This document shows positions 5,769 through 19,499 of a stretch of 38,445 nt of DNA, piece by piece (position 1 is the stretch's first letter; every line of letters starts with the position of its first letter). Under the pieces are notes generated by a model, which was not told the origin of the DNA, did no database searches, and saw only the letters and a list, made by a program, of their open reading frames with translations. The stretch lies in contig NZ_KK037166.1 of the NCBI RefSeq assembly GCF_000568255.1, positions 8,965,435 to 9,003,879 of the forward strand, in the 5' to 3' direction. Position numbers and translations under genes: made by a program. Source of the stretch: Kutzneria sp. 744 (lineage in GTDB: Bacteria > Actinomycetota > Actinomycetes > Mycobacteriales > Pseudonocardiaceae).

Positions 5769-7871
5769 ATGGGCGCGAGGGGTCCGCGTACCGACAACGA
5801 CCGGTTGTGGATCGGCTACCTGTCGGCGGGCGCTCTCGTCCTGCTCGCCTACTACCTGGTGCCGCCGGTCGGGGTGGGCGTCGGCGTGAGAATCACGCTG
5901 TACTGCCTGGACAGCGCCTCCGCCGCCGTGATGGTGATCCTCGGCATCGTCCGCCACCGCCCGCGGCCCCGGCTGCCGTGGCTGCTGCTGGGCCTGAGCC
6001 AGGTCGTCTACGCCGCCGCCGACACCAGCTTCTACGTCGCGCACTACGCCTTCGGCGTCCTCGACTACCCCGGCGTCGCCGACCCGCTCTACGTCGCCCA
6101 CTACCCGCTCGTGGTGGCCGGCCTGATGCTGCTGATCCGCCGCCGCACGCCCGGGCGCGACCTGCCCGGCGTGCTGGACGCCGCCGTGATCGGCGTCGGC
6201 GCGGCGATGCTGTCCTGGCTGTTCCTCATCGCCCCCAACGCCCGGCTCGACGCGCCGGTGGTGGTGAAGGCCTTCTCGCTGGCCTATCCGGTGCTCGACC
6301 TGCTGATGCTGACCGTCGCTCTGCGACTGATCCTCGGCGGCGGCCGCCGGCCCGCGGCGTTCTACCTGTTGACGTTCAACATGCTGGCGTTCGTCGCGGC
6401 CGACACGATGTACGTGTCACAGCAACTTGACGGCACCTACGTGACCGGCAACTTCCTCGACGCCATCTGGCTGGCCGGCAACCTGGCCCTGGGCGCGGCG
6501 GCGCTGCATCCGACGATGGCTCGGCTCACCGATCCGTCCCCGGTGCGGGACGCCAGCATCGGTCCGGCCCGTATCGCCGCGCTGTGCGGGGCGGCGCTGA
6601 TCGCCCCGGTCACGCTGTACATCCAGAGCGCGCGCGGCGACCTGCGGGACATCCCCGTGATCGCGCTGGCCTGCGCCCTGCTGTTCGGGCTGACCATCGC
6701 CCGGCTGGCCGGGCTGGTGTCCGACCAGCGGCGGCTGGCCATCACCGACGCGCTGACCGGGCTGCACACCCGGCGCTTCTTCGAGGCCCAGCTGCCCATC
6801 GAGGTGGCGCGGGCGCGGCGGGCCGGCGGCTCGCTGGCCGTGTTCATCGTGGACGTCGACCACTTCAAGTCGATCAACGACCACTACGGGCACCCGGCCG
6901 GCGACCAGGCCCTGATCGAGATCGCCGCCCGGCTGCGCGGCGCCGCCCGCGGCGGCGACGTGCTCTCGCGCTACGGCGGCGAGGAGTTCGCGCTGCTGGT
7001 TCCTGAGGCCTCGCTGAGCGAGCTGCACACCATCGCCGAGCGCCTGCGGTTGCGGGTCGCCAGCAGCCCCGTCGCGCTGTCCGAGGACACCTGGATCGCC
7101 GTCACGGTGTCCGTGGGCGCCGCCTGCTTCCCGTTGCACGGCGACAGTCCCAACGAGCTCGTCGCCACCGCCGACCGTGCCCTCTACGTCGCCAAGGCCC
7201 GCGGCCGGGACCGCGTTGTCGTCGGCGAGGCCGTCGCGACCAGCTCCGTCGTCGTCGCCGACCACACCGCGATGATCGACTACCTCAGTCACGTCGCCGA
7301 CGAGGTCGATGCCCAGCTGCACGCCCAGGATCACAGCCTGGCCATCAGCCGCTGGGCGCACACCCTGGTCACCGCGCTGGGCCAGGACGAGGCCACCGCC
7401 CGCAACGCCGAGCTGGCCGGGCGGCTGCACGACATCGGCAAGATCGTCATCCCCGAGGCCGTGCTCACCAAGCCCACCGCCCTGACCGAGGACGAGTGGC
7501 GCCTGGTCCGCCAGCACCCCGAGTACGGCTACCGCCTGGCCCGCATGGTCCCCGGCTTCGGCGTCGTGGCCGACATCATCCGCCAGCACCACGAGCGCTA
7601 CGACGGCAACGGCTACCCCTCGCGCCTCGTCGGCAACGGCATCCGCGTCGAGGCCCGGGTGCTGTCCATCTGCGACTCCTGGGCCGCCATGCTGGTCGAC
7701 CGCCCCTACCAGCCCGCGCTGTCCGTCGACGCCGCCGCCGAGCAGCTCCGCCAGGGCCGCGGCACCCAGTTCGACCCCGACGTCGTCGACCTGTTCCTCG
7801 ACCTGCTGCGCAAGGGCCAGATCGGGGACCTGAAGCGGCCCACCGAACTGACCCCCGAGCAGCAGGGCTGA
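5769..7871 (+). CDS. Membrane GGDEF and HD-GYP cyclic-di-GMP enzyme
   Basis: Protein of 700 residues predicted both to make and to degrade cyclic di-GMP. Residues 13-315 form about nine membrane helices, a possible sensory domain. The GGDEF domain (about 322-485) keeps the active site GGEEF (403-407) and an inhibitory-site RxxD (RGGD, 394-397) exactly five residues upstream. The HD-GYP domain (about 505-690) keeps HDIGK (554-558) and HHERYDGNGYP (607-617), the phosphodiesterase signature. Both catalytic halves therefore look intact, and the I-site implies product feedback. The start ATG 5769 follows GAGAGGG. It is monocistronic. In actinomycetes cyclic di-GMP controls developmental timing, which is the likely but unproven setting. 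Confidence 0.9.
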   Translation: MGARGPRTDNDRLWIGYLSAGALVLLAYYLVPPVGVGVGVRITLYCLDSASAAVMVILGIVRHRPRPRLPWLLLGLSQVVYAAADTSFYVAHYAFGVLDYPGVADPLYVAHYPLVVAGLMLLIRRRTPGRDLPGVLDAAVIGVGAAMLSWLFLIAPNARLDAPVVVKAFSLAYPVLDLLMLTVALRLILGGGRRPAAFYLLTFNMLAFVAADTMYVSQQLDGTYVTGNFLDAIWLAGNLALGAAALHPTMARLTDPSPVRDASIGPARIAALCGAALIAPVTLYIQSARGDLRDIPVIALACALLFGLTIARLAGLVSDQRRLAITDALTGLHTRRFFEAQLPIEVARARRAGGSLAVFIVDVDHFKSINDHYGHPAGDQALIEIAARLRGAARGGDVLSRYGGEEFALLVPEASLSELHTIAERLRLRVASSPVALSEDTWIAVTVSVGAACFPLHGDSPNELVATADRALYVAKARGRDRVVVGEAVATSSVVVADHTAMIDYLSHVADEVDAQLHAQDHSLAISRWAHTLVTALGQDEATARNAELAGRLHDIGKIVIPEAVLTKPTALTEDEWRLVRQHPEYGYRLARMVPGFGVVADIIRQHHERYDGNGYPSRLVGNGIRVEARVLSICDSWAAMLVDRPYQPALSVDAAAEQLRQGRGTQFDPDVVDLFLDLLRKGQIGDLKRPTELTPEQQG

Positions 7872-7874
7872 CGC

Positions 7875-7902
7875 TTATCCACAGGCTCCCCGTTTGTCCA
7901 CA
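7875..7902 (+). promoter_or_regulatory. Two DnaA-box-like sequences in tandem
   Basis: TTATCCACA (7875-7883, the classical DnaA box) and TTGTCCACA (7894-7902, the form usual in high-GC actinomycetes) lie in the same orientation 19 bp apart. They sit in the 116-nt gap between two convergent genes. No dnaA, dnaN or AT-rich unwinding region is nearby, so this is not an origin. The rest of the gap holds only a C-run and G-run near 7962-7981 that could pair weakly. Confidence 0.5.
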
Positions 7903-7987
7903 GGTCACCCGCTAACAAGATCGACCAGGGATCGCTGCGGGTAGGCTGGAGCCGGGGCTGCCCCCCTGGGAGTGGCGGGGGATGGAA

Positions 7988-8644
7988 TCAGGCCAGCTCG
8001 GCCAGGGTGTTCCAGAACATGAGCTCGTAGCTCTGGATCAGGCGGCCGTACTCGAAGGCGGCCTCGGTGCCGCGCCCGGCGTCCAGGCCGGCCTGCACGA
8101 TGGCGATGGCCGGCTCGTCGCCGTCCGGGGCGGGGGCGGCGAAGAAGTCGAAGAAGGAGCAGCCGTCGTCGTCGAAGCCGTAGTGCTGGCGCAGCCCGGC
8201 GGCGGCGGTGCGGCAGTAGTTGCCCCAGGCGGAGAAGTTGGCCACCACGGCCAGGGTGACGTCGGTGGGCTCGCCGTTCAGCGCGAGCCAGGCCAGGTAG
8301 GACGGATAGGCCTGGCAGCCGGCGAGGGGCTTGTACGAGCGAAGGTCCTCGTCGGACAGGCCGGCGGCGGTGGCGAACTTGCGCAGGTTGTCCAGGGCCA
8401 GGCCCTCGCCGGCGGCGAGGCCGGAGAAGAAGGCGCCGGCGGCCGGGTTCTCGCAGCGCGACGCCAGCACGAGGAAGCTGCGCCAGTCGCTGACGATGAT
8501 CCGGTGCTGCTCGGCGGCCAGCGCGGCGAGCGCTTTCCGGGAGGCCTTGCCCTCGGCGATCAGCGGCACCAGGCGGTTCTCGTGCTCGCCCGGGGCCAGG
8601 TCCTTGCGGGCGGTCTCCAGCAGTTCGCGGGCCGAAGCGGTCAT
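7988..8644 (-). CDS. TenA-like (thiaminase II / haem-oxygenase fold) protein
   Basis: All-helical TenA-family protein of 218 residues. Characterised TenA enzymes hydrolyse aminopyrimidines in thiamin salvage. The C-terminal SYELMFW motif (residues 205-211) supplies the usual catalytic Glu (E207). By eye alignment, the position of the active-site Cys of classical TenA (PCxW-type motif) is Ser138 here (NFSAW), so this looks like a Cys-less variant whose reaction may differ. The start overlaps the stop of the NCS1 permease gene as ATGA, so import and hydrolysis are coupled. I saw no TPP riboswitch (no CTGAGA or ACCTGAT-type core) upstream of the permease. Confidence 0.75.
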   Translation of the reverse strand: MTASARELLETARKDLAPGEHENRLVPLIAEGKASRKALAALAAEQHRIIVSDWRSFLVLASRCENPAAGAFFSGLAAGEGLALDNLRKFATAAGLSDEDLRSYKPLAGCQAYPSYLAWLALNGEPTDVTLAVVANFSAWGNYCRTAAAGLRQHYGFDDDGCSFFDFFAAPAPDGDEPAIAIVQAGLDAGRGTEAAFEYGRLIQSYELMFWNTLAELA

Positions 8645-10038
8645 CGCTGCGTGTTCCCCTCAGTGATCGACGGTCGTAGCCGCCGACTGAAGCCCAGCAC
8701 GGCCGCGGCGTTCGGTGTCCCGGCGACGACGGCGGCCAGTGCAGCGTAGATCAGTCCGGCCAGCAGCCAGGTCTCGACCGGCACGATGCCGACACCGGGC
8801 ACGGAATCCTGCCCCGGCAGCAGGCCGAGGCCCCACGCCCCGAACGCCACGGCGACGATCACGGCGATCAGCGCCGGCCAGTTGGCGAACGCGGCCTCCC
8901 CCCAGGTGGGCACTTCGTCAACTCGACGCCGCCGCAACCAGAACTGGTCCACGCACATCACCACGGTGGTGCTGGGCAGGGCGATCGACGACCAGCTCGC
9001 GACCGTGTAGAAGCCGTCCTGCACGTCCGGGAACTGCCAGGTGAACACGGCGGCGATCACGGCCATCAGCAGGCAGGTGTGCCAGCGCTTCCAGCCCGGG
9101 ATCGTGCCCAGCACGTTCTGGCCGCCGTTGACCATCTCGTAGTAGTTGCCGTCGTTGATCGCGACGATCAGCACCGCGGCCACGACACCGCCCAGCCACA
9201 GCGCCCCGAACAGCGAGTACTCGACGGTGTAGTGGAAGGCCGGCCCGAAGTCGTACTGGCTGGCCCCGGACAGCTCGGCCATCATCCAGCCGCCGGCCAC
9301 GAACAGCACCAGCCCCACCGCGAAGGCGATGCCGAACGCCGGCGCCGGCCAGAGGAACTTCGGCTTGCCGTAGCGCCAGGTGTCGGGCTCGTTGCCCCAC
9401 ATCACGGAGCCGATGGCCACGCCGACCCCGGTCAGGAACGGCAGCTCGGAGCTGGGCCGGGGCCGCGCCGACAGGGCGTCGTCGGGCATGGTGCCGATGC
9501 CCTTGACCACCAGGTACAGCACCCAGACGATCATCAGCGGCGCGGCGACCCAGCGGGCGAAGCCGGCGATTCCCTTGAAGCCGAACAGGTTGTTGGCGAT
9601 GCCGAGCACGGCCAGCACCACGCTGATCACGACCACGTGGCCCCAGCCGTAGAGGCCGTCGAACAGCGTGGCCAGCAGGTTGAAGGCGAACGCGGTCCAG
9701 CCGGCGGCCACGCCCACCAGCAGCAGGCTGACCAGGGCGGAGCCGAGCTTGCCGAGGATGGAGCGGGTGAGCAGGGCATGCGTCTGGCCGGTGGTGGAGC
9801 CCAGGTAGGCGGCCGGCAGCGCGTACAGGAAGTAGGCCACCGCGCCGATCGCGCCGGCGGCGATCGCCTGCAGCAGCGAGTAGCCGGCGTCGTGGTACTG
9901 GAAACCCAGGAACAGATAGGTGAATCCGGCGGCGAGCGTCACCCACAGGGCGACGAAGTGGTAGCGGGACCGGCGCTCGTCGGCCGGCACGATCCCGGCC
10001 GCGCCGGTCGAGTAGTCGTGATCTGTCGTGTCAGCCAC
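8641..10038 (-). CDS. NCS1-family nucleobase/thiamin-precursor permease
   Basis: Integral membrane transporter of 465 residues with about twelve helices, belonging to the nucleobase:cation symporter-1 family (purines, pyrimidines, hydantoins, thiamin or hydroxymethylpyrimidine). The family feel is given by FTYLFLGFQYHDAGYSLLQAI, the STTGQTHALLTRSILGKLGS segment after helix 2 and the GNEPDTWRYGKPKFLWP loop. The start is GTG at 10036-10038 preceded by GGGGAGAGGG. Coupling to a TenA-like gene favours an aminopyrimidine or thiamin-breakdown product as cargo (inference). The PucR-type regulator gene is 158 nt upstream on the same strand. Confidence 0.85.
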   Translation of the reverse strand: MADTTDHDYSTGAAGIVPADERRSRYHFVALWVTLAAGFTYLFLGFQYHDAGYSLLQAIAAGAIGAVAYFLYALPAAYLGSTTGQTHALLTRSILGKLGSALVSLLLVGVAAGWTAFAFNLLATLFDGLYGWGHVVVISVVLAVLGIANNLFGFKGIAGFARWVAAPLMIVWVLYLVVKGIGTMPDDALSARPRPSSELPFLTGVGVAIGSVMWGNEPDTWRYGKPKFLWPAPAFGIAFAVGLVLFVAGGWMMAELSGASQYDFGPAFHYTVEYSLFGALWLGGVVAAVLIVAINDGNYYEMVNGGQNVLGTIPGWKRWHTCLLMAVIAAVFTWQFPDVQDGFYTVASWSSIALPSTTVVMCVDQFWLRRRRVDEVPTWGEAAFANWPALIAVIVAVAFGAWGLGLLPGQDSVPGVGIVPVETWLLAGLIYAALAAVVAGTPNAAAVLGFSRRLRPSITEGNTQR

Positions 10039-11315: not shown

Positions 11316-11396
11316 ATGAGCGAGCTTGCGAGCGAATCATTCAACGCAGAGCGTCCGCGAACGCGGACACCGAGCGACAGCGAGGTGCCGCAGTGA
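11316..11396 (+). CDS. Short upstream ORF overlapping the first hydrolase start
   Basis: A 26-codon ORF (ATG 11316) encodes a charged peptide beginning MSELASESF and ends in a TGA that overlaps the GTG start of the first hydrolase (GTGA). Its DNA repeats GAGCGA-like words and contains a hairpin with 7-bp arms GTCCGCG/CGCGGAC (11353-11368). It could be a translational coupling leader or only a fragment of a dispersed repeat. There is no homology I can name. Confidence 0.35.
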   Translation: MSELASESFNAERPRTRTPSDSEVPQ

Positions 11397-12337
11397 GCTA
11401 CGCGATCGATCCCGAACTCCAGCCGTGGCTGGCGATGCTGCCGGTGATCAGCCTTGAGGACATGTCGGTCATCCGGGCCGCGATGGCCGATCCGGAGGCG
11501 CGGGCCCAGGGCTTCCAGCTGCCGGTGTACGAGCCGGCGTCGCCGGTCGCCGTGGAGGAGAAGCTGATCCCCGGCCCCGCCGGCGCGCCGGACGTGCGCG
11601 TTCGCGTCTACACGCCGAGCGGGCACAACGGACCGCTGCCCGGCTACCTCAACATTCACGGCGGCGGGTTCGTCATCGGCGACCTCGACCAGGACGAGTC
11701 GCTGGCCACCCGGATCGCCGACCAGATCGGGGCGGTCGTGGTGTCCGTCGACTACCGGCTGGCTCCGGAGCACCCGTACCCGGCGGGCCTTGAGGACTGC
11801 TATGCGGCTTTGGAATGGACCACGGCCAAGGCATCCGAGTTGCGCATAGACCCGTCCCGGATCGGGATCGGCGGCATCAGCGCCGGCGGCGGTCTGTCCG
11901 CCGCCCTAGCGCTGCTAGCGCGTGACCGTGGCGGGCCGGCCATCTGCTTCCAGTACCTGGGCGTTCCCGAGCTGGACGATCGCCTGGAGACGCCGTCGAT
12001 GACGAAGTTCGTCGACACCCCCATGTGGAATCGGCCCAACGCCGTCTACAGCTGGCAGTACTACCTCGGCGGCCAGCCGGCCGACCAGTATGCCGCGCCG
12101 TCCCGCGCCGAGGACCTGTCCGGTCTGCCGCCGGCCTACGTCGACGTGTGCGAGTTCGATCCCCTCCGTGACGAGGGCATGATCTACGCACACCGCCTGA
12201 TCCAGGCCGGCGTGCCGACCGAGCTGCACCACTTCCCCGGCACGTTCCACGGCTCCGGCCTGGTCGAGGCGGCCGCCGTCAGCCGCCGCATGTCCGGCGA
12301 GATGATCGACGCCATCCGCCGCGGCCTGAAGGCGTGA
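11393..12337 (+). CDS. Alpha/beta-hydrolase, hormone-sensitive-lipase family, copy 1
   Basis: Esterase/lipase-type hydrolase of 314 residues. The oxyanion-hole HGGG (89-92) precedes GISAGGG with nucleophile Ser163; Asp256 (CEFDPLRDEG) and His286 (FHGS) complete the triad, all in HSL-family order. No signal peptide, so cytoplasmic. Start GTG 11393 with GAGG 8 nt upstream; it encodes (M)SYAIDPEL, matching the N-terminus of the neighbouring copy. The last codons overlap a possible GTG of copy 2. The two proteins are close relatives across their length, so this is a tandem duplication. Substrate unknown; small acyl esters are typical for the family. Confidence 0.85.
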   Translation: MSYAIDPELQPWLAMLPVISLEDMSVIRAAMADPEARAQGFQLPVYEPASPVAVEEKLIPGPAGAPDVRVRVYTPSGHNGPLPGYLNIHGGGFVIGDLDQDESLATRIADQIGAVVVSVDYRLAPEHPYPAGLEDCYAALEWTTAKASELRIDPSRIGIGGISAGGGLSAALALLARDRGGPAICFQYLGVPELDDRLETPSMTKFVDTPMWNRPNAVYSWQYYLGGQPADQYAAPSRAEDLSGLPPAYVDVCEFDPLRDEGMIYAHRLIQAGVPTELHHFPGTFHGSGLVEAAAVSRRMSGEMIDAIRRGLKA

Positions 12338-12342
12338 CGACC

Positions 12343-13272
12343 ATGGCCTACGCGATCGACCCCGAACTCCTGCCGTGGCTGGAGATGCTGCCCTCCGGCG
12401 ACTTCACCGACCCCGTCGAGGCCAGGGAGCAGTTCCGGCGCGTCGTCGCCGGCCGGGCGGCGTACGAGACGTCGACGCCGGTCTCCATCGAGGAGAAGCT
12501 GATCCCCGGCCCCGACGGCGCGCCCGACGTGCGGATCCGCGTCTACACGCCGACCGGCCGCCCGGCGCCGCGGCCCGGCTACCTCTCCATCCACGGCGGC
12601 GGCTTCGTCATCGGCGACCTGGACATGGATGAGGCCGGTTCGCTCGCCGTCGCCGACGAGATCGGCGCCGTCGTGGTGTCCGTGGACTACCGGCTCGCGC
12701 CCGAACATCCGTACCCGGCCGGCATCGAGGACTGCTACGCCGCGTTGGCCTGGACCGCCGCCAACGCCGCCGACCTCGGCATCGACCCCGACCGCCTCGC
12801 CATCGGCGGCGGCAGCGCCGGCGGCGGCCTGTCCGCCGGCCTAGCGCTGCTAGCGCGTGACCGTGGCGGGCCGGCCATCTGCTTCCAGTACCTCGGCATT
12901 CCCGAGCTGGACGACCGGCTCGACACGCCGTCCATGACCCAGTTCGTAGACACCCCCATGTGGAACCGCCCCCGCGCAGTGATCAGCTGGGACGCCTACC
13001 TCGGCGGCCGCCCCGCCGACCAGTACGCCTCGCCCGCCCGCGCCGAGGACCTCTCCGGCCTGCCGCCCGCCTACGTCTCCGTGTGCGAGTTCGACCCCCT
13101 CCGCGACGAGGGCCTCATCTACGCGCACCGCCTCATCCAGGCCGGCGTGCCGACCGAGGTGCACCACTACCCGGGCACCTTCCACGGCTCCGGCCTCGTC
13201 GAGTCGGCCACCGTCAGCCGGCGCATGGCGGCCGAGATGCTGGACGCCCTCCGCCGCGGTCTCAAGGCCTGA
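12343..13272 (+). CDS. Alpha/beta-hydrolase, hormone-sensitive-lipase family, copy 2
   Basis: Second tandem HSL-family hydrolase, 309 residues, with the same HGGG, GGSAGGG nucleophile motif, CEFDPLRDEG and FHGS blocks as copy 1. ATG 12343 was chosen over an overlapping GTG at 12334 because MAYAIDPEL lines up with the start of copy 1 and AAGG lies about 10 nt upstream. A 54-nt block (12840-12893) is identical to 11905-11958 in copy 1, including two CTA leucine codons that are rare in this genome, which suggests recent local gene conversion. It is followed by a 149-nt gap and the NCS1 operon. Confidence 0.85.
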   Translation: MAYAIDPELLPWLEMLPSGDFTDPVEAREQFRRVVAGRAAYETSTPVSIEEKLIPGPDGAPDVRIRVYTPTGRPAPRPGYLSIHGGGFVIGDLDMDEAGSLAVADEIGAVVVSVDYRLAPEHPYPAGIEDCYAALAWTAANAADLGIDPDRLAIGGGSAGGGLSAGLALLARDRGGPAICFQYLGIPELDDRLDTPSMTQFVDTPMWNRPRAVISWDAYLGGRPADQYASPARAEDLSGLPPAYVSVCEFDPLRDEGLIYAHRLIQAGVPTEVHHYPGTFHGSGLVESATVSRRMAAEMLDALRRGLKA

Positions 13273-13319: not shown

Positions 13320-13392
13320 GATCCTCGGGACAGGTGGACCGCGGGCGTGTTGCCGGGCAGGGTCGGCGGGCGTATGGTCCGCCCAACTGAAC

Positions 13393-13403
13393 AGGTCTGG
13401 ACA
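13393..13403. promoter_or_regulatory. GntR/HutC-type operator candidate
   Basis: AGGTCTGGACA resembles the HutC-subfamily half-palindrome TGGTCTAGACCA (about 9 of 12 positions). It lies 19-29 nt before the first gene of the six-gene operon, whose third gene encodes a HutC-type (UTRA) GntR regulator, so autoregulation is likely. Confidence 0.4.
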
Positions 13404-13421
13404 GGATCAGAGGAGCCCTCG

Positions 13422-14873
13422 ATGGCGCCCGGTGCGGACTCGGCCCCACTCCAGGTGGAGGCCAACGGCATCAATGTGATCGGCGACGACGAGCGCAAGG
13501 GCACGGCCAGACAGCTGTTCTGGCCCTGGTTCGGGGCCAACGTCTCGGTGCTGGGCCTGAGCTACGGCTCGTTCACGCTGGGCTTCGGCATCTCGTTCTG
13601 GCAGGCGGCGATCGCCGGCGTGGTGGGCATCGTCTTCTCGTTCCTGCTGTGCGGCTTCGTCGCGGTGGCGGGCAAGCGGGGATCGGCGCCGACAATGATC
13701 CTGAGCCGGGCGGCGTTCGGCGTGCGCGGCAACTGGCTGGCGACGGCGATCTCCTGGGTCCTGACGGTGGGCTGGGAAACCGTGCTGACGGTGCTGGCCA
13801 CGCTGGCCACGGCGACGGTGTTCACGCAGCTGGGCTGGGGTGGCGGCCCGGTGGTGAAGATCCTGGCGCTGGTGGTGGTCGCGGTGCTGACCATCGGCGG
13901 CGGCGTGATGGGCTTCGACCTGATCATGCGCATGCAGACCGTGATCACGATTGTCACGGCCGTGCTGACGCTGGTGTTCATCGCCTTCGTGATCCCGCAC
14001 ATCGACTGGGCCAAGGTGGCCGCCGTCCCGGCGGGGTCGGCGGGCAGCGTGGTCGGCGCGCTGGTGTTCCTCATGACGGGCTTCGGCCTGGGCTGGGTGA
14101 ACGCGGCGGCGGACTACTCCCGCTACCTGCCGCGGACCACCTCGGGCCGTGCGGTGATCGGCTGGACGACGTTCGGCTCGGCGCTGGCCCCGGTGGTGCT
14201 GCTGATCATGGGCCTGCTGCTGGCGGCCTCGTCACCGGACCTGAACAAGGCGATCGCGGCCGACCCGATCGGCGCGCTGGCCAGCGTGCTGCCCACCTGG
14301 TACCTGGTGCCGTTCGTGATCGTGGCGGTGCTCGGCCTGGTCGGCGGCGCGGTGCTGAACATCTACTCCTCGGGCCTGGCCCTGCTGGCTGCCGGCCTGA
14401 AGGCGCCGCGGTTCGTGGCCGCGCTGATCGACGGCACGATCATCATCCTCGGCACGATCTACGTGGCCTTCTTCGCCGACGACTTCCTGGGCCCGTTCCA
14501 GGGTTTCCTCATCACGCTGGGCACGCCGATCGCGGCCTGGTGCGGCGTGATGCTGGCCGACATCGCCTCCCGCCGAAACGGATACTCGGAGACCGACCTG
14601 TACGACCCGAAGGGCCGCTACGGCAGCGTGCGCTGGCTGGCTGTCGGCGTCGTGGTGGTGTCCACAGTGGTCGGTTGGGGGCTCGTCACCAACACGTACG
14701 CGGCATGGCTGTCCTGGCAGGGATATCTGCTCAGCCCGCTCGGGCTCGGCGGCCGTGACGGCGCTTGGGCGGCGGCGAACCTGGGCGTGCTCGCGGCCCT
14801 GGTGATCTCCTTCGTGGTCACGTGGGCGGCGCGGCGGTCGCAGGTGCGCAAACAGGAGCTGGTGGCGGCATGA
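13422..14873 (+). CDS. NCS1-family cytosine/purine-type permease
   Basis: Integral membrane symporter of 483 residues with about twelve helices, closer to the cytosine/purine permease branch than the other NCS1 gene in the window. Family signs are the N-terminal WFGANVSVLGLSYG, KRGSAPTMILSRAAFGVRGN after helix 2, and NAAADYSRYLPRTTSG in mid-protein. The start ATG 13422 follows AGAGGA. The stop TGA overlaps the ATG of the cysteine hydrolase. It is the first gene of a six-gene operon and presumably brings in its substrate: a nucleobase, nucleoside-like or hydantoin-like compound. Confidence 0.85.
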   Translation: MAPGADSAPLQVEANGINVIGDDERKGTARQLFWPWFGANVSVLGLSYGSFTLGFGISFWQAAIAGVVGIVFSFLLCGFVAVAGKRGSAPTMILSRAAFGVRGNWLATAISWVLTVGWETVLTVLATLATATVFTQLGWGGGPVVKILALVVVAVLTIGGGVMGFDLIMRMQTVITIVTAVLTLVFIAFVIPHIDWAKVAAVPAGSAGSVVGALVFLMTGFGLGWVNAAADYSRYLPRTTSGRAVIGWTTFGSALAPVVLLIMGLLLAASSPDLNKAIAADPIGALASVLPTWYLVPFVIVAVLGLVGGAVLNIYSSGLALLAAGLKAPRFVAALIDGTIIILGTIYVAFFADDFLGPFQGFLITLGTPIAAWCGVMLADIASRRNGYSETDLYDPKGRYGSVRWLAVGVVVVSTVVGWGLVTNTYAAWLSWQGYLLSPLGLGGRDGAWAAANLGVLAALVISFVVTWAARRSQVRKQELVAA

Positions 14874-15403
14874 AGGCCCACCTCGCGGTGATCGACATGC
14901 AGTACGTGTTCGCCGATCCGCAAAGTCCTTGGTTCACTCCGGGGTTCGAGGGCGTGATGGCCCCGATCCACAAGCTGGTGGCGGCGTTCAGGGACGTCAC
15001 GTTCACCCGCTTCGTCGCCCCGGAACGGCCGGTCGGCGCCTGGCGGCTGTACTACGAGCGCTGGCCGTTCGCGGTGCAGCCGCCGGATGCCGAGATCTAC
15101 CAGCTGGTCGACGGCCTGCAAGGGTCCACAGTGGACGAGACCACCTTCGGCAAGTGGGGCCCCGACCTGGCCGAGCGGGTCGGCGACGCCGATGTGCTGG
15201 TGCTGGCCGGGGTGGCGACGGACTGCTGCGTGCTGTCGACGGCGCTGGCGGCGGCCGACGCGGGCATGCTGACCTGGATCGTTGCCGATGCCTGCGCCGG
15301 CATGGACGACGCGGCGCACGAACGGGCCCTGGACATCGCCCGCGGCTACAGCCCGCACATCGAGGTCAAGACGCTGGACGAGGTGCTGACGTGCTGCGTC
15401 TGA
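14870..15403 (+). CDS. Isochorismatase-like cysteine hydrolase
   Basis: Cytoplasmic hydrolase of 177 residues in the isochorismatase/nicotinamidase superfamily, whose members cleave amide or carbamoyl bonds of small molecules. The Asp-Lys-Cys triad is readable: D9 (VIDMQ), K95 (TFGKWGPDL) and C120 (ATDCCV, just after the cis-peptide region). The start overlaps the permease stop as ATGA; the 3' end overlaps the GTG start of the GntR gene by 13 nt. In this operon it probably opens or deamidates the heterocyclic or amide part of the imported compound. Relatives include nicotinamidase, N-carbamoylsarcosine amidase and RutB; I cannot choose among them. Confidence 0.8.
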   Translation: MKAHLAVIDMQYVFADPQSPWFTPGFEGVMAPIHKLVAAFRDVTFTRFVAPERPVGAWRLYYERWPFAVQPPDAEIYQLVDGLQGSTVDETTFGKWGPDLAERVGDADVLVLAGVATDCCVLSTALAAADAGMLTWIVADACAGMDDAAHERALDIARGYSPHIEVKTLDEVLTCCV

Positions 15404-16095
15404 AGTACGAGCAGATCGCCGACCAGCTGGCGCGGGACATTCGCGGCGGCCGCTTACCGCGTGGCGCGCGACTGCCCGGCGAGCACGTGCTGGCCAGCCG
15501 GTTCGAGGTCAGCCGCAACACGATCCGCCAGGCCCTGGCCGAGCTGGGCAGCCGCGGCCTGATCGCCACCCACTCCGGCAAGGGCTCGTTCGTCACCTTC
15601 GACGACCGCCCGCTGGACGACCGCATCGGCTGGACGCGGGCGCTGGCCGAGCAGGGCGTGCACACCACGGTCGAGGTCATCCGGCTGGAGCTGGTCACCG
15701 ACCGGGCGATGGCCGACCGGTTCGGCGTCGACGACGACGAGTTCGTGGCACTCGACCGCGTCAGGTCCATTGTGGACGGGCCGCCGATCTCCTTCGAGTG
15801 CACCAGGGTCGCCGCCACCGACCCGATGCGCCAGCTGACCGAGTCCGGTCTGGACGGATCGCTGTACGACGTGCTGCGCGCGGAGGGCCTGGTGCCCGAA
15901 CAGGGGGAGGAGTGGGTCGAGTTGGGGCAGATCACCGAGGTGGAGGCGGCTGTGCTCGGCCGTTCGCCGGGGGAGCGCTTCCTGCGGGCCCGCCGGCTGT
16001 GTCGGGATCGCCACGGTGTTTTCGTGGAGCACACGGAGAGTCTGCTGGATCCGGACCGCTTCCGGCTGCACCTGAAGTTCGGTGGCGTGGAGTGA
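15391..16095 (+). CDS. GntR-family regulator, HutC (UTRA) subfamily
   Basis: Regulator of 234 residues. The N-terminal winged helix-turn-helix (residues about 3-70: YEQIADQLARDIRGGRLPRG and VSRNTIRQALAELGSRGL) is followed by a UTRA ligand-binding domain (about 85-232). GTG 15391 is the start because LRLKYEQIADQL is the normal beginning of the family and GAGG lies just upstream. The gene is embedded in the operon, overlapping both neighbours, so it very likely controls the operon itself through the site at 13393-13403. The effector should be the substrate or an intermediate of the pathway. Confidence 0.88.
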   Translation: MLRLKYEQIADQLARDIRGGRLPRGARLPGEHVLASRFEVSRNTIRQALAELGSRGLIATHSGKGSFVTFDDRPLDDRIGWTRALAEQGVHTTVEVIRLELVTDRAMADRFGVDDDEFVALDRVRSIVDGPPISFECTRVAATDPMRQLTESGLDGSLYDVLRAEGLVPEQGEEWVELGQITEVEAAVLGRSPGERFLRARRLCRDRHGVFVEHTESLLDPDRFRLHLKFGGVE

Positions 16096-17075
16096 GCCGC
16101 GCGCTGGCGGCGTTCACCGGACTGGCCATCGGCGACGCGCTGGGCATGCCGACGCAGTCGATGCCGCGGGAGGCGATCCAGGCCCGCTACGGCGTCCTCA
16201 CCGGATTCGAGCCGGGGCCGGCGGACCAGCCGATCGCGCCAGGCATGGCTGCCGGCTCGATCACCGACGACACCGAGCAGGCGGTTCTGGTGGCGCGGCT
16301 GCTGATCGCCGGCGACGGGCACGTCGACGCGCACCGGCTGGCGGCCGATCTGCTGGCGTGGGAAGAGGACATGCGTCGCCGCGGCTCGCTGGACCTGCTC
16401 GGGCCGTCGACCAAGGCCGCGGTGAGCGCGGTGGCGGCGGGCGAGAGCCTGGAGCGGGCCGGACGGTTCGGCACGACCAACGGCGCCGCGATGCGAATCA
16501 CCCCTGTCGGCATCGCGCACGGCGTCGACGACCTTCCATCCCTTGTGGACAAAGTCGTCGAGGCCAGCTGGGTCACGCACAACACGGGTGTCGCGCTGTC
16601 GGGCGCGGCGGCCGTGGCGGCCGCGGTGAGCGCCGGCATCGCCGGCGCCACCGTCGCCGAGGCCACGAAGATCGCGGCCGAGGCGGCGGGATTGGCTTCG
16701 GGGCGAGGAAACTGGATCGCCGCCGGCGATGTGGGCACGCGGCTGGCCTGGGCCAGCGAGGTCGTCGAGGACCTGCCGCCGGGCGAGGCCGCCGACACGA
16801 TCTACCGGTTGGTCGGCACGAGCGTCGCCACGCAGGAGTCAGTGCCGGCCGCTTTTGCCGTGCTGGCCGTGCATCCGGACGATCCGTGGCGGGCCTGCCT
16901 GCTCGCGGCCTCGCTCGGCGGCGACTGCGACACCATCGCCGCCATCGTCGGGGCGATCGCCGGTGCCTGCCACGGCGACGACGCCTTCCCGGACGAGGCG
17001 GTGCGCACCATCCACGCGGTCAACGACCTTCCGTTGGCCGGACTGACCGCGGAACTGCTGGCGCTGCGCGGATGA
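16092..17075 (+). CDS. ADP-ribosylglycohydrolase-family protein
   Basis: DraG/ARH-fold enzyme of 327 residues. The di-metal signature is present: GLAIGDALGMPTQ near the N-terminus, SITDDTEQ around residue 57, and GGDCDTIAAIVGAIAGA near the C-terminus. Family members hydrolyse N- or O-glycosidic bonds of ADP-ribose. In a catabolic operon with a PfkB kinase and an NCS1 permease, a role in cleaving a ribosyl-base (N-glycosidic) bond is more likely than removal of ADP-ribose from proteins; this is inference. GTG start 16092 overlaps the GntR stop, and the stop overlaps the kinase ATG. Confidence 0.82.
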   Translation: MSRALAAFTGLAIGDALGMPTQSMPREAIQARYGVLTGFEPGPADQPIAPGMAAGSITDDTEQAVLVARLLIAGDGHVDAHRLAADLLAWEEDMRRRGSLDLLGPSTKAAVSAVAAGESLERAGRFGTTNGAAMRITPVGIAHGVDDLPSLVDKVVEASWVTHNTGVALSGAAAVAAAVSAGIAGATVAEATKIAAEAAGLASGRGNWIAAGDVGTRLAWASEVVEDLPPGEAADTIYRLVGTSVATQESVPAAFAVLAVHPDDPWRACLLAASLGGDCDTIAAIVGAIAGACHGDDAFPDEAVRTIHAVNDLPLAGLTAELLALRG

Positions 17076-17998
17076 GCCGCCTGGTGCACGTGGGCCAGGT
17101 GATCGTCGACATCGTGATGTACGTGCCGAGGCTGCCCGAGCGGGGCGGCGACGTGCTGGCGACCGGCGGCGGAACCGAGGTCGGCGGCGGCTTCAACGTG
17201 CTCACCGCCGCCGTGCGCCAGGGCCTGACCGCCGCCTACGGTGGCATGCACGGCACCGGGCCGTGGGGCGATCTCGCCCGCAAACGCTTGGCGCAGGAGC
17301 ACATCGACGTGCTCCAGCCGAAGATGTCCGCGCTGGACACGGGTTTCACGGTGGCGCTGGTCGATGCGGAGGGGGAGCGGACGTTCGCCACCACCTTCGG
17401 CGCGGAGGGCCAGCTGCGAACGAACGACCTGCGGCGGATCCGGATCTTCACCGATGACATCGTGTACGTCTCGGGCTACGGCCTGGCTTTGCCGGTGAAC
17501 GGCCCCGCGGTGAACTCCTGGCTGTCCACTGTGGACTCTAATATCACCGTGGTGCTCGATCCCGGCCCGCTGGCGGCGGAGATTCCCGAAGCCGTGCTGA
17601 AACCGGTGATCGACCGGGCCGACTGGATCAGCTGCAACGAGCGCGAGGCCAAGCTGCTGACCGGCGAGGACGACCCGGTCAAGGCCGTCCAGGCCTTGCG
17701 GCGGCGCAACGCCATCGTCCGCATCGGGTCCGGCGGCTGCGTGCTGGCGACGGCCGACGACGTGATCACGGTGCCGGGCTTCCCGGTCGAGGTGGTGGAC
17801 ACCAACGGCGCCGGCGACGCGCACACCGGCGCGTTCATGGCTGGCCTGGCCGCCGGACTCCCGCCGAGACGGGCCGCGCGGCGGGCCAACGCCGCCGCAG
17901 CGATCGCCGTCACCCGACGAGGGCCGGCCTCTGCCCCTACGATCGAGGAGGTGCACAAGCTGCTGAGCGACGAGGAGCCTGGGGATGTCGCTGACTGA
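17072..17998 (+). CDS. PfkB-family (ribokinase-like) sugar or nucleoside kinase
   Basis: Kinase of 308 residues. The N-terminal substrate lid region GGGTEVGGGFNVLTAAVRQG and the C-terminal anion-hole and catalytic-base motif DTNGAGDAHTGAFMAGLAAG are clear. Members phosphorylate ribose, other sugars or nucleosides. ATG 17072 overlaps the previous stop, and the gene runs 14 nt into the CoA-transferase gene. Together with the glycohydrolase-like protein it suggests that a glycoside is phosphorylated before or after cleavage, as in pseudouridine use, although no PsuG homologue is present. Confidence 0.85.
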   Translation: MSRLVHVGQVIVDIVMYVPRLPERGGDVLATGGGTEVGGGFNVLTAAVRQGLTAAYGGMHGTGPWGDLARKRLAQEHIDVLQPKMSALDTGFTVALVDAEGERTFATTFGAEGQLRTNDLRRIRIFTDDIVYVSGYGLALPVNGPAVNSWLSTVDSNITVVLDPGPLAAEIPEAVLKPVIDRADWISCNEREAKLLTGEDDPVKAVQALRRRNAIVRIGSGGCVLATADDVITVPGFPVEVVDTNGAGDAHTGAFMAGLAAGLPPRRAARRANAAAAIAVTRRGPASAPTIEEVHKLLSDEEPGDVAD

Positions 17999-19448
17999 CA
18001 AGGTGGCGGCCGCGGTGGCGAACCCGCTGGCCACGGCCGAGTTCGACCCGCATGCCGAGCTGACGGAGGTGCTGGCCGGCATCGGCATGAGCCCGTCCGA
18101 CACCGGCGGCGAGATCACCTTCGTCGGCGCGGACCCCGTGGTGCCGAGCACGCTGCGCCTCGGCGGCGCGGCCGGCATCGCCCTGGTCGCCAAGTCGGCG
18201 GCGATGGCCAAGCTGTGGCGGCTGCGCGGCGGCGAGGGCCAGGACATCTCCGTCGACCTGCGGGTCACCCCGCACCGGCTGTGCCCGTTCTACGACCGCA
18301 AGTGGGAGAAGCTCAACGGCCACGTGCCGGTGTCGGCGGCCAATCCCACCAACGCCTTCGGCTTCGCCTTCTACCGCACCGCCGACGACCGCTGGGTGAT
18401 GCCGCTCAACCCGTACCCGAAGATCAAGGTCGCCGCCCAGAAGCTGCTGGACGTGCCGGACGACGCCGAGCGAGTGGCCCAGGCGGTGTCCAAATGGGAC
18501 GCCCGTGACCTGGAGGCCGCGGCCGTCGAGGCCGGTGTGGTGCTGCCGATGTTGCGCTCCACCGAGGAGTTCCTGGCCGAGCGGACCGGCATCGAGGACC
18601 TGCCGCTGATCGAGATCACCAAGATCGGGGACTCCGACCCCGAGCCGCTGCCGGGCGGCGTGGAGTTGCCGCTGTCCGGTGTCAAGGCACTCGGCATGGG
18701 GCACGTGATCGCCGGCGCCGGGGCCGGCCGGGCGCTCGCGCTGCACGGGGCCGATGTGCTGAACCTGTGGCGGGTCAACGAGTTGGAGCACGATGTCACG
18801 TACATCACGGCCAACGTCGGTGTGCGCTCGGCGACGGTCGACCCCGCCGCGGACCGGGAGTTGGTCACTGGCCTGCTGGCCGGCGCGGACGTGTTCTATG
18901 CCAACCGCCGCCCCGGCTACCTGGCTCAAATCGGTGTCTCGCCCGAGCAGGCGGCGCAGGTCCGGCCGGGGATCGTGCACGTCACGGCCTCGCTCAACGG
19001 CGAACGCGGGCCGTGGGCCGGCCGGGTCGGCTTCGACCAGACCGCCGGCAGCCTGGTCGGCATGATGAACCTGGAAGGCAGCGACGAAGGCCCCAAGCTG
19101 CCGCCGATCCTCGTGGTCAACGACTACATCGTGTCCTGGCTGATGGCCACCGGCGCGGCCGAGGCGCTGGCCCGCCGGGCCGTCGAGGGCGGCAGCTACC
19201 GCGTGCACGTGTCGCTGACCCGGGCCGCGCTGTGGATTCTCAGCATGGGCGTGTTCGACCGGGCCTACGCCGCCGAGACGGCGGGAGGCGTTGAGCAGCA
19301 TCGGTATCTGGACCCGGAGACGTTCACTGTGGACACTCCGCTCGGCGCGTACCAGGGCGTGACCGAGCAGGTCCGCATGTCGCGGACGCCCGGGCGCTAC
19401 GCGGTGCCGCTGGTGCCGCGCGGCGCGTCCCGGCCGGTGTGGCTCTGA
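17985..19448 (+). CDS. Family III CoA-transferase (CaiB/BaiF type)
   Basis: Cytoplasmic CoA-transferase of 487 residues, somewhat longer than the usual 400 or so. Family features are LRLGGAAGIALVAKSAAMAKLWRLRGGEGQDISVDL near the N-terminus, RRPGYLAQIGVSPEQ, and GERGPWAGRVGFDQTAGSLVGMM in the middle. Start ATG 17985 lies inside the end of the kinase gene, behind a GAGGAG Shine-Dalgarno. As the last gene of the operon it may activate an organic acid released by the preceding enzymes to its CoA ester. A perfect 9-bp hairpin follows 30 nt after the stop. Confidence 0.82.
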   Translation: MSLTDKVAAAVANPLATAEFDPHAELTEVLAGIGMSPSDTGGEITFVGADPVVPSTLRLGGAAGIALVAKSAAMAKLWRLRGGEGQDISVDLRVTPHRLCPFYDRKWEKLNGHVPVSAANPTNAFGFAFYRTADDRWVMPLNPYPKIKVAAQKLLDVPDDAERVAQAVSKWDARDLEAAAVEAGVVLPMLRSTEEFLAERTGIEDLPLIEITKIGDSDPEPLPGGVELPLSGVKALGMGHVIAGAGAGRALALHGADVLNLWRVNELEHDVTYITANVGVRSATVDPAADRELVTGLLAGADVFYANRRPGYLAQIGVSPEQAAQVRPGIVHVTASLNGERGPWAGRVGFDQTAGSLVGMMNLEGSDEGPKLPPILVVNDYIVSWLMATGAAEALARRAVEGGSYRVHVSLTRAALWILSMGVFDRAYAAETAGGVEQHRYLDPETFTVDTPLGAYQGVTEQVRMSRTPGRYAVPLVPRGASRPVWL

Positions 19449-19478: not shown

Positions 19479-19499
19479 GGCATCGGCTCGGCCGATGCC
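19479..19499 (+). terminator. Hairpin after the six-gene operon
   Basis: Perfect 9-bp arms GGCATCGGC/GCCGATGCC with a TCG loop, 30 nt after the CoA-transferase stop. There is no U-run, as is usual for putative terminators in high-GC actinomycetes. It directly precedes the aldehyde dehydrogenase promoter. Confidence 0.5.

Follow-up and report, generated by a model that had tools for sequence, protein, structure and literature searches.

The yegTUV/yegW (ggaR) locus of Escherichia coli encodes an importer, a protein of the ADP-ribosylglycohydrolase fold (ADPRG; YegU), a PfkB-family kinase (YegV), and a GntR regulator. PMC10819704 states that these genes have no clear function so far and describes YegT as a predicted nucleoside symporter. 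In Salmonella, the operon STM4065-4067 likewise combines an ADP-ribosylglycohydrolase with a kinase of the PfkB type, and STM4066 is reported to be an aminoimidazole riboside kinase (PMC3161100). An operon of related content lies in the stretch analyzed here, a window of 38,445 nucleotides from Kutzneria sp. 744 (contig NZ_KK037166.1, positions 8,965,435 to 9,003,879) that is part of an 11.65-Mb actinomycete chromosome. Its six genes are all on the plus strand, each overlapping the next (by 4, 13, 4, 4, and 14 bp, in order), and encode an NCS1 permease, an isochorismatase-fold hydrolase, a GntR/UTRA regulator, an ADPRG, a PfkB kinase, and a family III CoA-transferase-like protein. All six proteins pass the Pfam cut-offs (PF02133, PF00857, PF00392 with PF07702, PF03747, PF00294, and PF02515), which bears out the end-to-start array of families named in the first-pass annotation of this DNA. 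Among the NCBIfam matches listed for the six proteins (for GntR, the best 25), none reaches its cut-off.

We give a probability of about one in two to the reading that the core of this operon is a self-contained module that imports and cleaves a small N- or O-glycoside, in which the kinase acts before the hydrolase and a dedicated GntR protein exerts control. NCS1 would import the glycoside, the PfkB kinase would phosphorylate its sugar, and the dimetal DraG-fold ADPRG would split the phosphorylated product hydrolytically at its glycosidic bond, yielding a sugar phosphate and an aglycone. In operons with the type-A subtype of NCS1, the isochorismatase-fold enzyme would then hydrolyze a C-N bond of amide type in this aglycone. 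GntR, sitting on tandem 10-bp repeats, would repress this operon only and come off upon contact with the substrate or its phosphate. The most likely substrate class would be a non-standard, nucleoside-like riboside.

The unit was delimited by searching for ADPRG homologs in 60 relatives (14 matched), 394 genomes of the class, 397 of the order, and a named genome collection, which gave 15 loci. All matches from relatives, class, and order outside the window's own genome were taken with their flanks; after five duplicates were removed from 70 loci, 65 remained, which are not independent because several come from one genus. ADPRG is accompanied by PfkB in 52 of these loci, by NCS1 in 45, by GntR in 43, by an isochorismatase-like gene in 13, and by the CoA-transferase in 4, and the most frequent gene order is GntR-ADPRG-NCS1-PfkB (34/65). 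The core is a four-gene module of GntR, ADPRG, NCS1, and PfkB, and the other operon genes are extras. Of the six linked families in the first-pass annotation, a permease, a kinase, and a DraG-fold enzyme with their own regulator therefore stand as a conserved unit; the isochorismatase-like gene belongs with one NCS1 subtype, and the CoA-transferase drops out. The module is conserved yet sparsely distributed, with ADPRG found in 38 of the 397 order genomes and 11 of the 394 class genomes (own genome counted throughout).

Kinase and ADPRG also travel together across genomes. When match lists for the kinase (E <= 1e-45) and ADPRG (E <= 1e-50) were overlapped in the order, the kinase was present in 34 of the 37 other ADPRG-bearing genomes versus 7 of the 359 without ADPRG, and it lay less than 3 kb from ADPRG in 28 of the 34 genomes with both. 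In two genomes of one genus, a single open reading frame encodes both proteins (675 and 676 aa; L095, positions 6693-8669, and L096). The 60 relatives include six further Kutzneria genomes; four have the module, and G003 and G004 do not. Four other ADPRGs are encoded in the Kutzneria genome itself, and no PfkB, NCS1, or GntR homolog of the module kind lies within about 7 kb of them. Separately, a GntR gene overlapping a PfkB gene without ADPRG or NCS1 was seen in genome G021 (L205:6898-8507) and is perhaps a remnant.

The kinase (308 aa, positions 17072-17998, plus strand; PF00294, E 5.9e-46) places the module next to the E. coli locus. In a tree of 53 kinases, 35 module kinases, including YegV and the Lactiplantibacillus protein, form one clade (91/91), outside which fall RbsK, PsuK, FruK, PfkB, KdgK, Gsk, YihV, YdjH, and nine other kinases of the Kutzneria genome. 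Among 45 ADPRGs placed in a tree, those of the modules and YegU likewise group together (41 rows, 99/99), apart from the four paralogs of the Kutzneria genome. Because of these two groupings, the Kutzneria module is considered a divergent relative of yegTUV-yegW. The two differ in several respects: where E. coli has YegT, Kutzneria has NCS1; yegW is convergent to its operon; and an isochorismatase-like gene is missing from the E. coli locus. Identity to the E. coli records is 34% for the kinase and 33-34% for ADPRG, and YegU has GMPSE where the Kutzneria protein has GMPTQ. No paper describing the actinobacterial module was found in the open-access papers searched. The first-pass label of an undescribed pathway thus holds for the operon in those papers, but the E. 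coli relative is a known locus, for which PMC10819704 gives no clear function.

The E. coli psuTGK operon is, by annotation, a further parallel, with a transporter, a PfkB kinase, and a glycosidase whose substrate is a nucleoside 5'-phosphate. In that pathway phosphorylation precedes the glycosidase step, and PsuG is not known to have the DraG fold. PsuK differs from the module kinases in that it lies outside their clade and joins FruK/PfkB (84/91), and a pseudouridine kinase reading of the window enzyme is not supported. As for Salmonella, we assume that a permease is also part of the STM4065-4067 operon, and we take the 'putative sugar kinase' structures 1tyy, 1tz3, and 1tz6 to be the STM4066 kinase. 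Their match to the kinase of the window reaches only 37.5 bits, so they probably represent another PfkB subgroup.

ADPRG (327 aa, GTG start, positions 16092-17075, plus strand) scores 202.4 bits to PF03747 (E 1.6e-59) and keeps the metal motifs TDDT and GGDxDT. Its AlphaFold2 model has a pLDDT of 92.6, and the best fold match is 1t5j. Fold and metal motifs are common to DraG, ARH1, ARH3, and the window protein, and this family membership is what would favor a protein de-ADP-ribosylating enzyme of DraG type whose linkage to the operon is regulatory. That explanation is extremely unlikely, given that the ADPRG is often paired, and once fused, with a sugar kinase, that importers adjoin it, and that the NCBIfam DraG equivalog TIGR02662 gives 86.1 bits against a cut-off of 337.05. 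The context of importer and kinase also sets the window protein apart from DraG and the ARH enzymes. ARH-type enzymes act on substrates that carry alpha-linked ribose, with which the titles of ARH3 structures are consistent, and an alpha-riboside is for this reason a substrate candidate.

The importers found with ADPRG vary, and many are of the nucleobase or nucleoside type. NCS1 (483 aa, positions 13422-14873, plus strand; PF02133, E 1.6e-37) is of a subtype, called type A here, that was split off by identity. A protein search of plasmid records for ADPRG gave 53 matches, of which 12 loci were inspected; a nucleobase- or nucleoside-type importer is present in 6 of these 12, as NCS1 is in 45 of the 65 homologous loci. 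ADPRG is accompanied by NCS1 and PfkB in four plasmid loci, from Paraburkholderia, L. plantarum, and Plesiomonas (cytosine permease by annotation in all three) and from Caballeronia (by homology), and by a nucleoside permease and PfkB in two (Pantoea and Salmonella). A four-gene ABC importer and PfkB take this place in Mesorhizobium, Paracoccus, and Rhizobium (3/12), and one Burkholderia locus (L157) has GntR and PfkB but no recognized importer.

Two plasmid loci, from Listeria and Enterococcus (L158 and L160), have ADPRG directly behind a beta-glucoside phosphotransferase system (PTS), and their flanks as covered here contain no PfkB. In Listeria, the locus resembles the module in having a regulator (of the PRD type), an importer, and an ADPRG of the wider clade; it differs in that PfkB and GntR were not found in the stretch and the PTS would supply the phosphate. 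We presume that it corresponds to a locus like bvrABC. A PTS phosphorylates its substrate on import and could thus replace permease and kinase, which suggests that the ADPRG would meet a phosphorylated glycoside.

Control of the module would follow an uncommon pattern. The GntR/UTRA (HutC-type) regulator (234 aa, GTG start, positions 15391-16095, plus strand; PF00392 and PF07702) is encoded behind a putative operator of two tandem 10-bp direct repeats, TGAACAGGTC and TGGACAGGAT (positions 13388-13407, plus strand), 14 bp 5' of the NCS1 start codon. In GntR-bearing loci, a direct repeat TGNACAKGNN occurs in two to three copies with a period of 10 bp (sometimes 11) upstream of the first gene. 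The degenerate pattern, which was composed after inspection of the same upstream regions, is present in 40 of 42 GntR-bearing loci and 1 of 22 GntR-less loci (L027), as against two matches in 13,000 mononucleotide shuffles. For the strict form with its 10-bp period, the counts are 28 of the 42 and 1 of the 22. Since the repeat is present with GntR and nearly absent without it, we infer that GntR is the protein that binds the tandem repeats.

The repeat is also nearly unique in the genome. A perfect TGNACAKGNNTGNACAKG occurs once in the Kutzneria chromosome, at window positions 13388-13405. With one mismatch allowed there are two further matches, against five for the reversed control pattern, which leaves the perfect match as the only distinctive one. 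Among 36 genomes picked for ADPRG, the strict pattern gives 34 perfect matches in 24 genomes and none in the other 12; 31 of these are module-associated (spread over 23 modules, where copies sometimes overlap) and three lie elsewhere, adjoining genes of unrelated look, whereas the reversed control gives 6. For the Kutzneria regulator, a single target would follow from the motif; for YegW it was found by experiment (PMC10819704). By eye, similar repeats lie 5' of GntR on the Mesorhizobium and Rhizobium plasmids, and the region before E. coli yegT shows no copy of the Kutzneria repeat.

GntR/UTRA proteins usually bind palindromes, and one reading direct repeats spaced by a helical turn would be unusual. 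A consensus for the classical HutC-type palindrome did no better than shuffles (mean best score 7.59 versus 7.48). Of the GntR-like operator placed in front of the operon by the first-pass annotation, what survives is therefore the conserved 10-bp direct repeat, not the classical palindrome. A separate observation is that E. coli yegT is preceded by a GGTATT-type repeat of 11 bp, present three times in tandem (L048:2746-2778). A tandem-repeat operator in such regions was considered and set aside: the generic repeat test gave p 0.009 for E. coli, 0.418 for Pantoea, 0.177 for Salmonella, and 0.59 for Plesiomonas (shuffles, 8 regions, uncorrected), and its power is low, as neither the repeat of the window itself (p 0.666) nor those of the rhizobia are picked up by it.

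Several observations weigh against the uptake-and-cleavage reading. With the cut-offs applied, a kinase homolog also turns up in seven order genomes that have no ADPRG match, and no clear ADPRG substitute was recognized in them by eye. In 4 of the 34 genomes with both proteins (genus g42, lone ADPRG) the kinase lies within an apparent inositol cluster, and these four do not count as support for the coupling. A neighboring PfkB is absent from 13 of the 65 loci: two end at a contig edge (L047 and L064, the latter retaining the first 61 kinase residues by eye), two are from genomes with a kinase homolog elsewhere (G053 and G657), four are those of g42 with the apparent inositol cluster, and five belong to genus g26. 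Support for the kinase clade is below the star mark of the tree tool (95/80). The PTS-linked ADPRGs lie on a distant branch (length 1.84) and may have another substrate. Finally, the 598 neighboring proteins include no recurrent one that would belong to an aglycone pathway.

The catalytic motif of ADPRG is a further point of this kind. Its sequence GDALGMPTQ departs from the pattern GDxxGxxxE, with Gln (Gln22) where DraG (3g9d) and MJ1187 have Glu, and the exchange leaves hydrolytic chemistry not assured. We take Glu41 to be the matching residue of ARH3; several ARH3 structure entries combine, by title, the E41A mutation with a bound ligand, either substrate or alpha-NAD+, which suggests that the position matters for catalysis. 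Gln is found in 60 of the 65 homologous loci and Glu in 5 (L094 and L097-L100), all lone ADPRGs of genus g26 without PfkB, NCS1, or GntR nearby; two of these g26 proteins, when put in the tree, sit inside the Gln-bearing group. Of the 13 rows from plasmids and E. coli, 6 have Gln and 7 have Glu, the latter comprising YegU of E. coli and Salmonella, the Pantoea, L. plantarum, and Plesiomonas proteins, and the two PTS-linked proteins.

The order of the two enzymatic steps could also be reversed. ADPRG would then cleave the unphosphorylated riboside like a nucleoside hydrolase, and PfkB would be a dedicated ribokinase for the ribose released, an order for which UriH/RbsK1-type uridine operons are a model. 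The kinase model (pLDDT 85.2) has ribokinases as its nearest folds, ribokinases are also best by sequence (86.6 bits), and such a kinase would equally fit free ribose after cleavage, which counts against phosphorylation first. Against this stand a separate RbsK-like kinase of the same genome (L127), which pairs with E. coli RbsK (100/98) and leaves the module kinase outside, and the two PTS-linked ADPRG loci that show no PfkB in the stretch. On balance, a hydrolase-first order is rather doubtful.

A different substrate is suggested by the E. coli regulator, since ADP-glucose is reported to dissociate GgaR (YegW) from its DNA and the regulator to influence glycogen (PMC10819704), which also counts against a nucleoside nutrient. 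The module would in this case handle a sugar nucleotide or ADP-ribose-like compound in storage or signaling, as the DraG/ARH fold of ADPRG would allow. The nucleobase, nucleoside, or ABC importers of the operons point instead to an external small solute, and 34% identity to YegV leaves room for another ligand, so that this explanation is improbable.

Uptake and cleavage of a glycoside, the reading preferred here, leaves the aglycone to be considered, and few neighbors inform on it. Neighbor families present in at least three genera look generic (named by eye). In one actinomycete genome, ADPRG-PfkB lies directly behind carA-carB-pyrK-pyrD-pyrF and before mihF-gmk-like genes (L066:6726-9420; carB, pyrK, pyrD, and pyrF by Pfam, carA by eye), a single case whose context hints at pyrimidines. 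Other neighbors were noted in passing. An XDH-like protein is encoded in four module loci of three genera, and in L065 and L067, from two genera, a nitrilase-like gene is divergent to ADPRG-PfkB, with XDH-like or HyuA/HyuB-like genes near (by eye). A link to B12 or alpha-ribazole was rejected; MetH is beside the module in L025 only, and the congener L024 has a pirin there.

The isochorismatase-fold hydrolase (177 aa, positions 14870-15403, plus strand; PF00857, E 1.9e-23) is an optional sub-module. Its gene accompanies 10 of 11 type-A NCS1 permeases (57-94% identity to that of the window) and none of 34 type-B permeases (35-40%), the exception being L046, whose type-A NCS1 (71%) stands without it. 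In L024, L025, and L096 the gene occurs with no NCS1 in the stretch, and L096 ends at the contig edge. The catalytic triad Asp-Lys-Cys is intact in the segments DMQ/DLQ, TFGKW, and TDCC across the 14 aligned proteins (L096 is truncated short of the Asp), in keeping with the amide-hydrolase-like protein proposed earlier. A nicotinamidase step of PncA type is not supported: the metal-binding Asp/His motif of PncA has its His part in none of the 14 aligned proteins, the NCBIfam model PRK11609 gives 22.1 bits against a cut-off of 174, and the best PDB matches, which are nicotinamidases, are weak (best E 8.9e-6, mainly round the Cys). The enzyme probably acts on the released aglycone or on a compound imported by type-A NCS1.

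The last gene of the operon encodes the CoA-transferase-like protein (487 aa, positions 17985-19448, plus strand; PF02515 across residues 230-434). An ortholog is present in 11 of 59 other relatives but adjoins the module only in four Kutzneria (4/65 loci), a linkage that is not conserved. In G010, G024, and G030 the CoA-transferase and the module are on different contigs, and G004, a fifth Kutzneria, has the CoA-transferase without the module. A full six-step route in which this enzyme activates the product, as the first-pass annotation envisaged, is hence very unlikely, even with the genes being co-directional neighbors in the window and four congeners; the CoA-transferase is a neighbor, not a pathway step. 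Behind the operon there is indeed a perfect 9-bp hairpin (positions 19479-19499, plus strand; GGCATCGGC-TCG-GCCGATGCC). It is not a conserved terminator, because no T run follows and the same search found a stem of at least 8 bp behind the CoA-transferase gene in none of the four congeners, one of which has a 7-bp stem elsewhere. Immediately 5' of the operon, two tandem alpha/beta-hydrolase (PF07859) genes occupy positions 11393-13272, and one or two such genes are found in three of the four congeners.

The yegTUV/yegW genes are an orphan locus of the best-studied bacterium. Their actinobacterial counterpart brings a fusion protein, a well-delimited unit of four genes, and the sequence of an operator, which makes inducer and substrate directly screenable. 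If the proposed reading holds, it would give the DraG/ARH fold a small-molecule role. A broader proposal, which we regard as tentative and somewhat unlikely, is a widespread and so far undescribed salvage of non-canonical, perhaps alpha-anomeric, ribosides. In it the DraG-fold enzyme, of a kind known to take ADP-ribose off proteins, would work as a phospho-riboside hydrolase with a YegV-type kinase to which it is once fused; Gln would replace Glu in its catalytic motif, and the GntR regulator would recognize direct repeats in tandem, not a palindrome. Should this hold, E. coli yegTUV would be a distant version of the same route.

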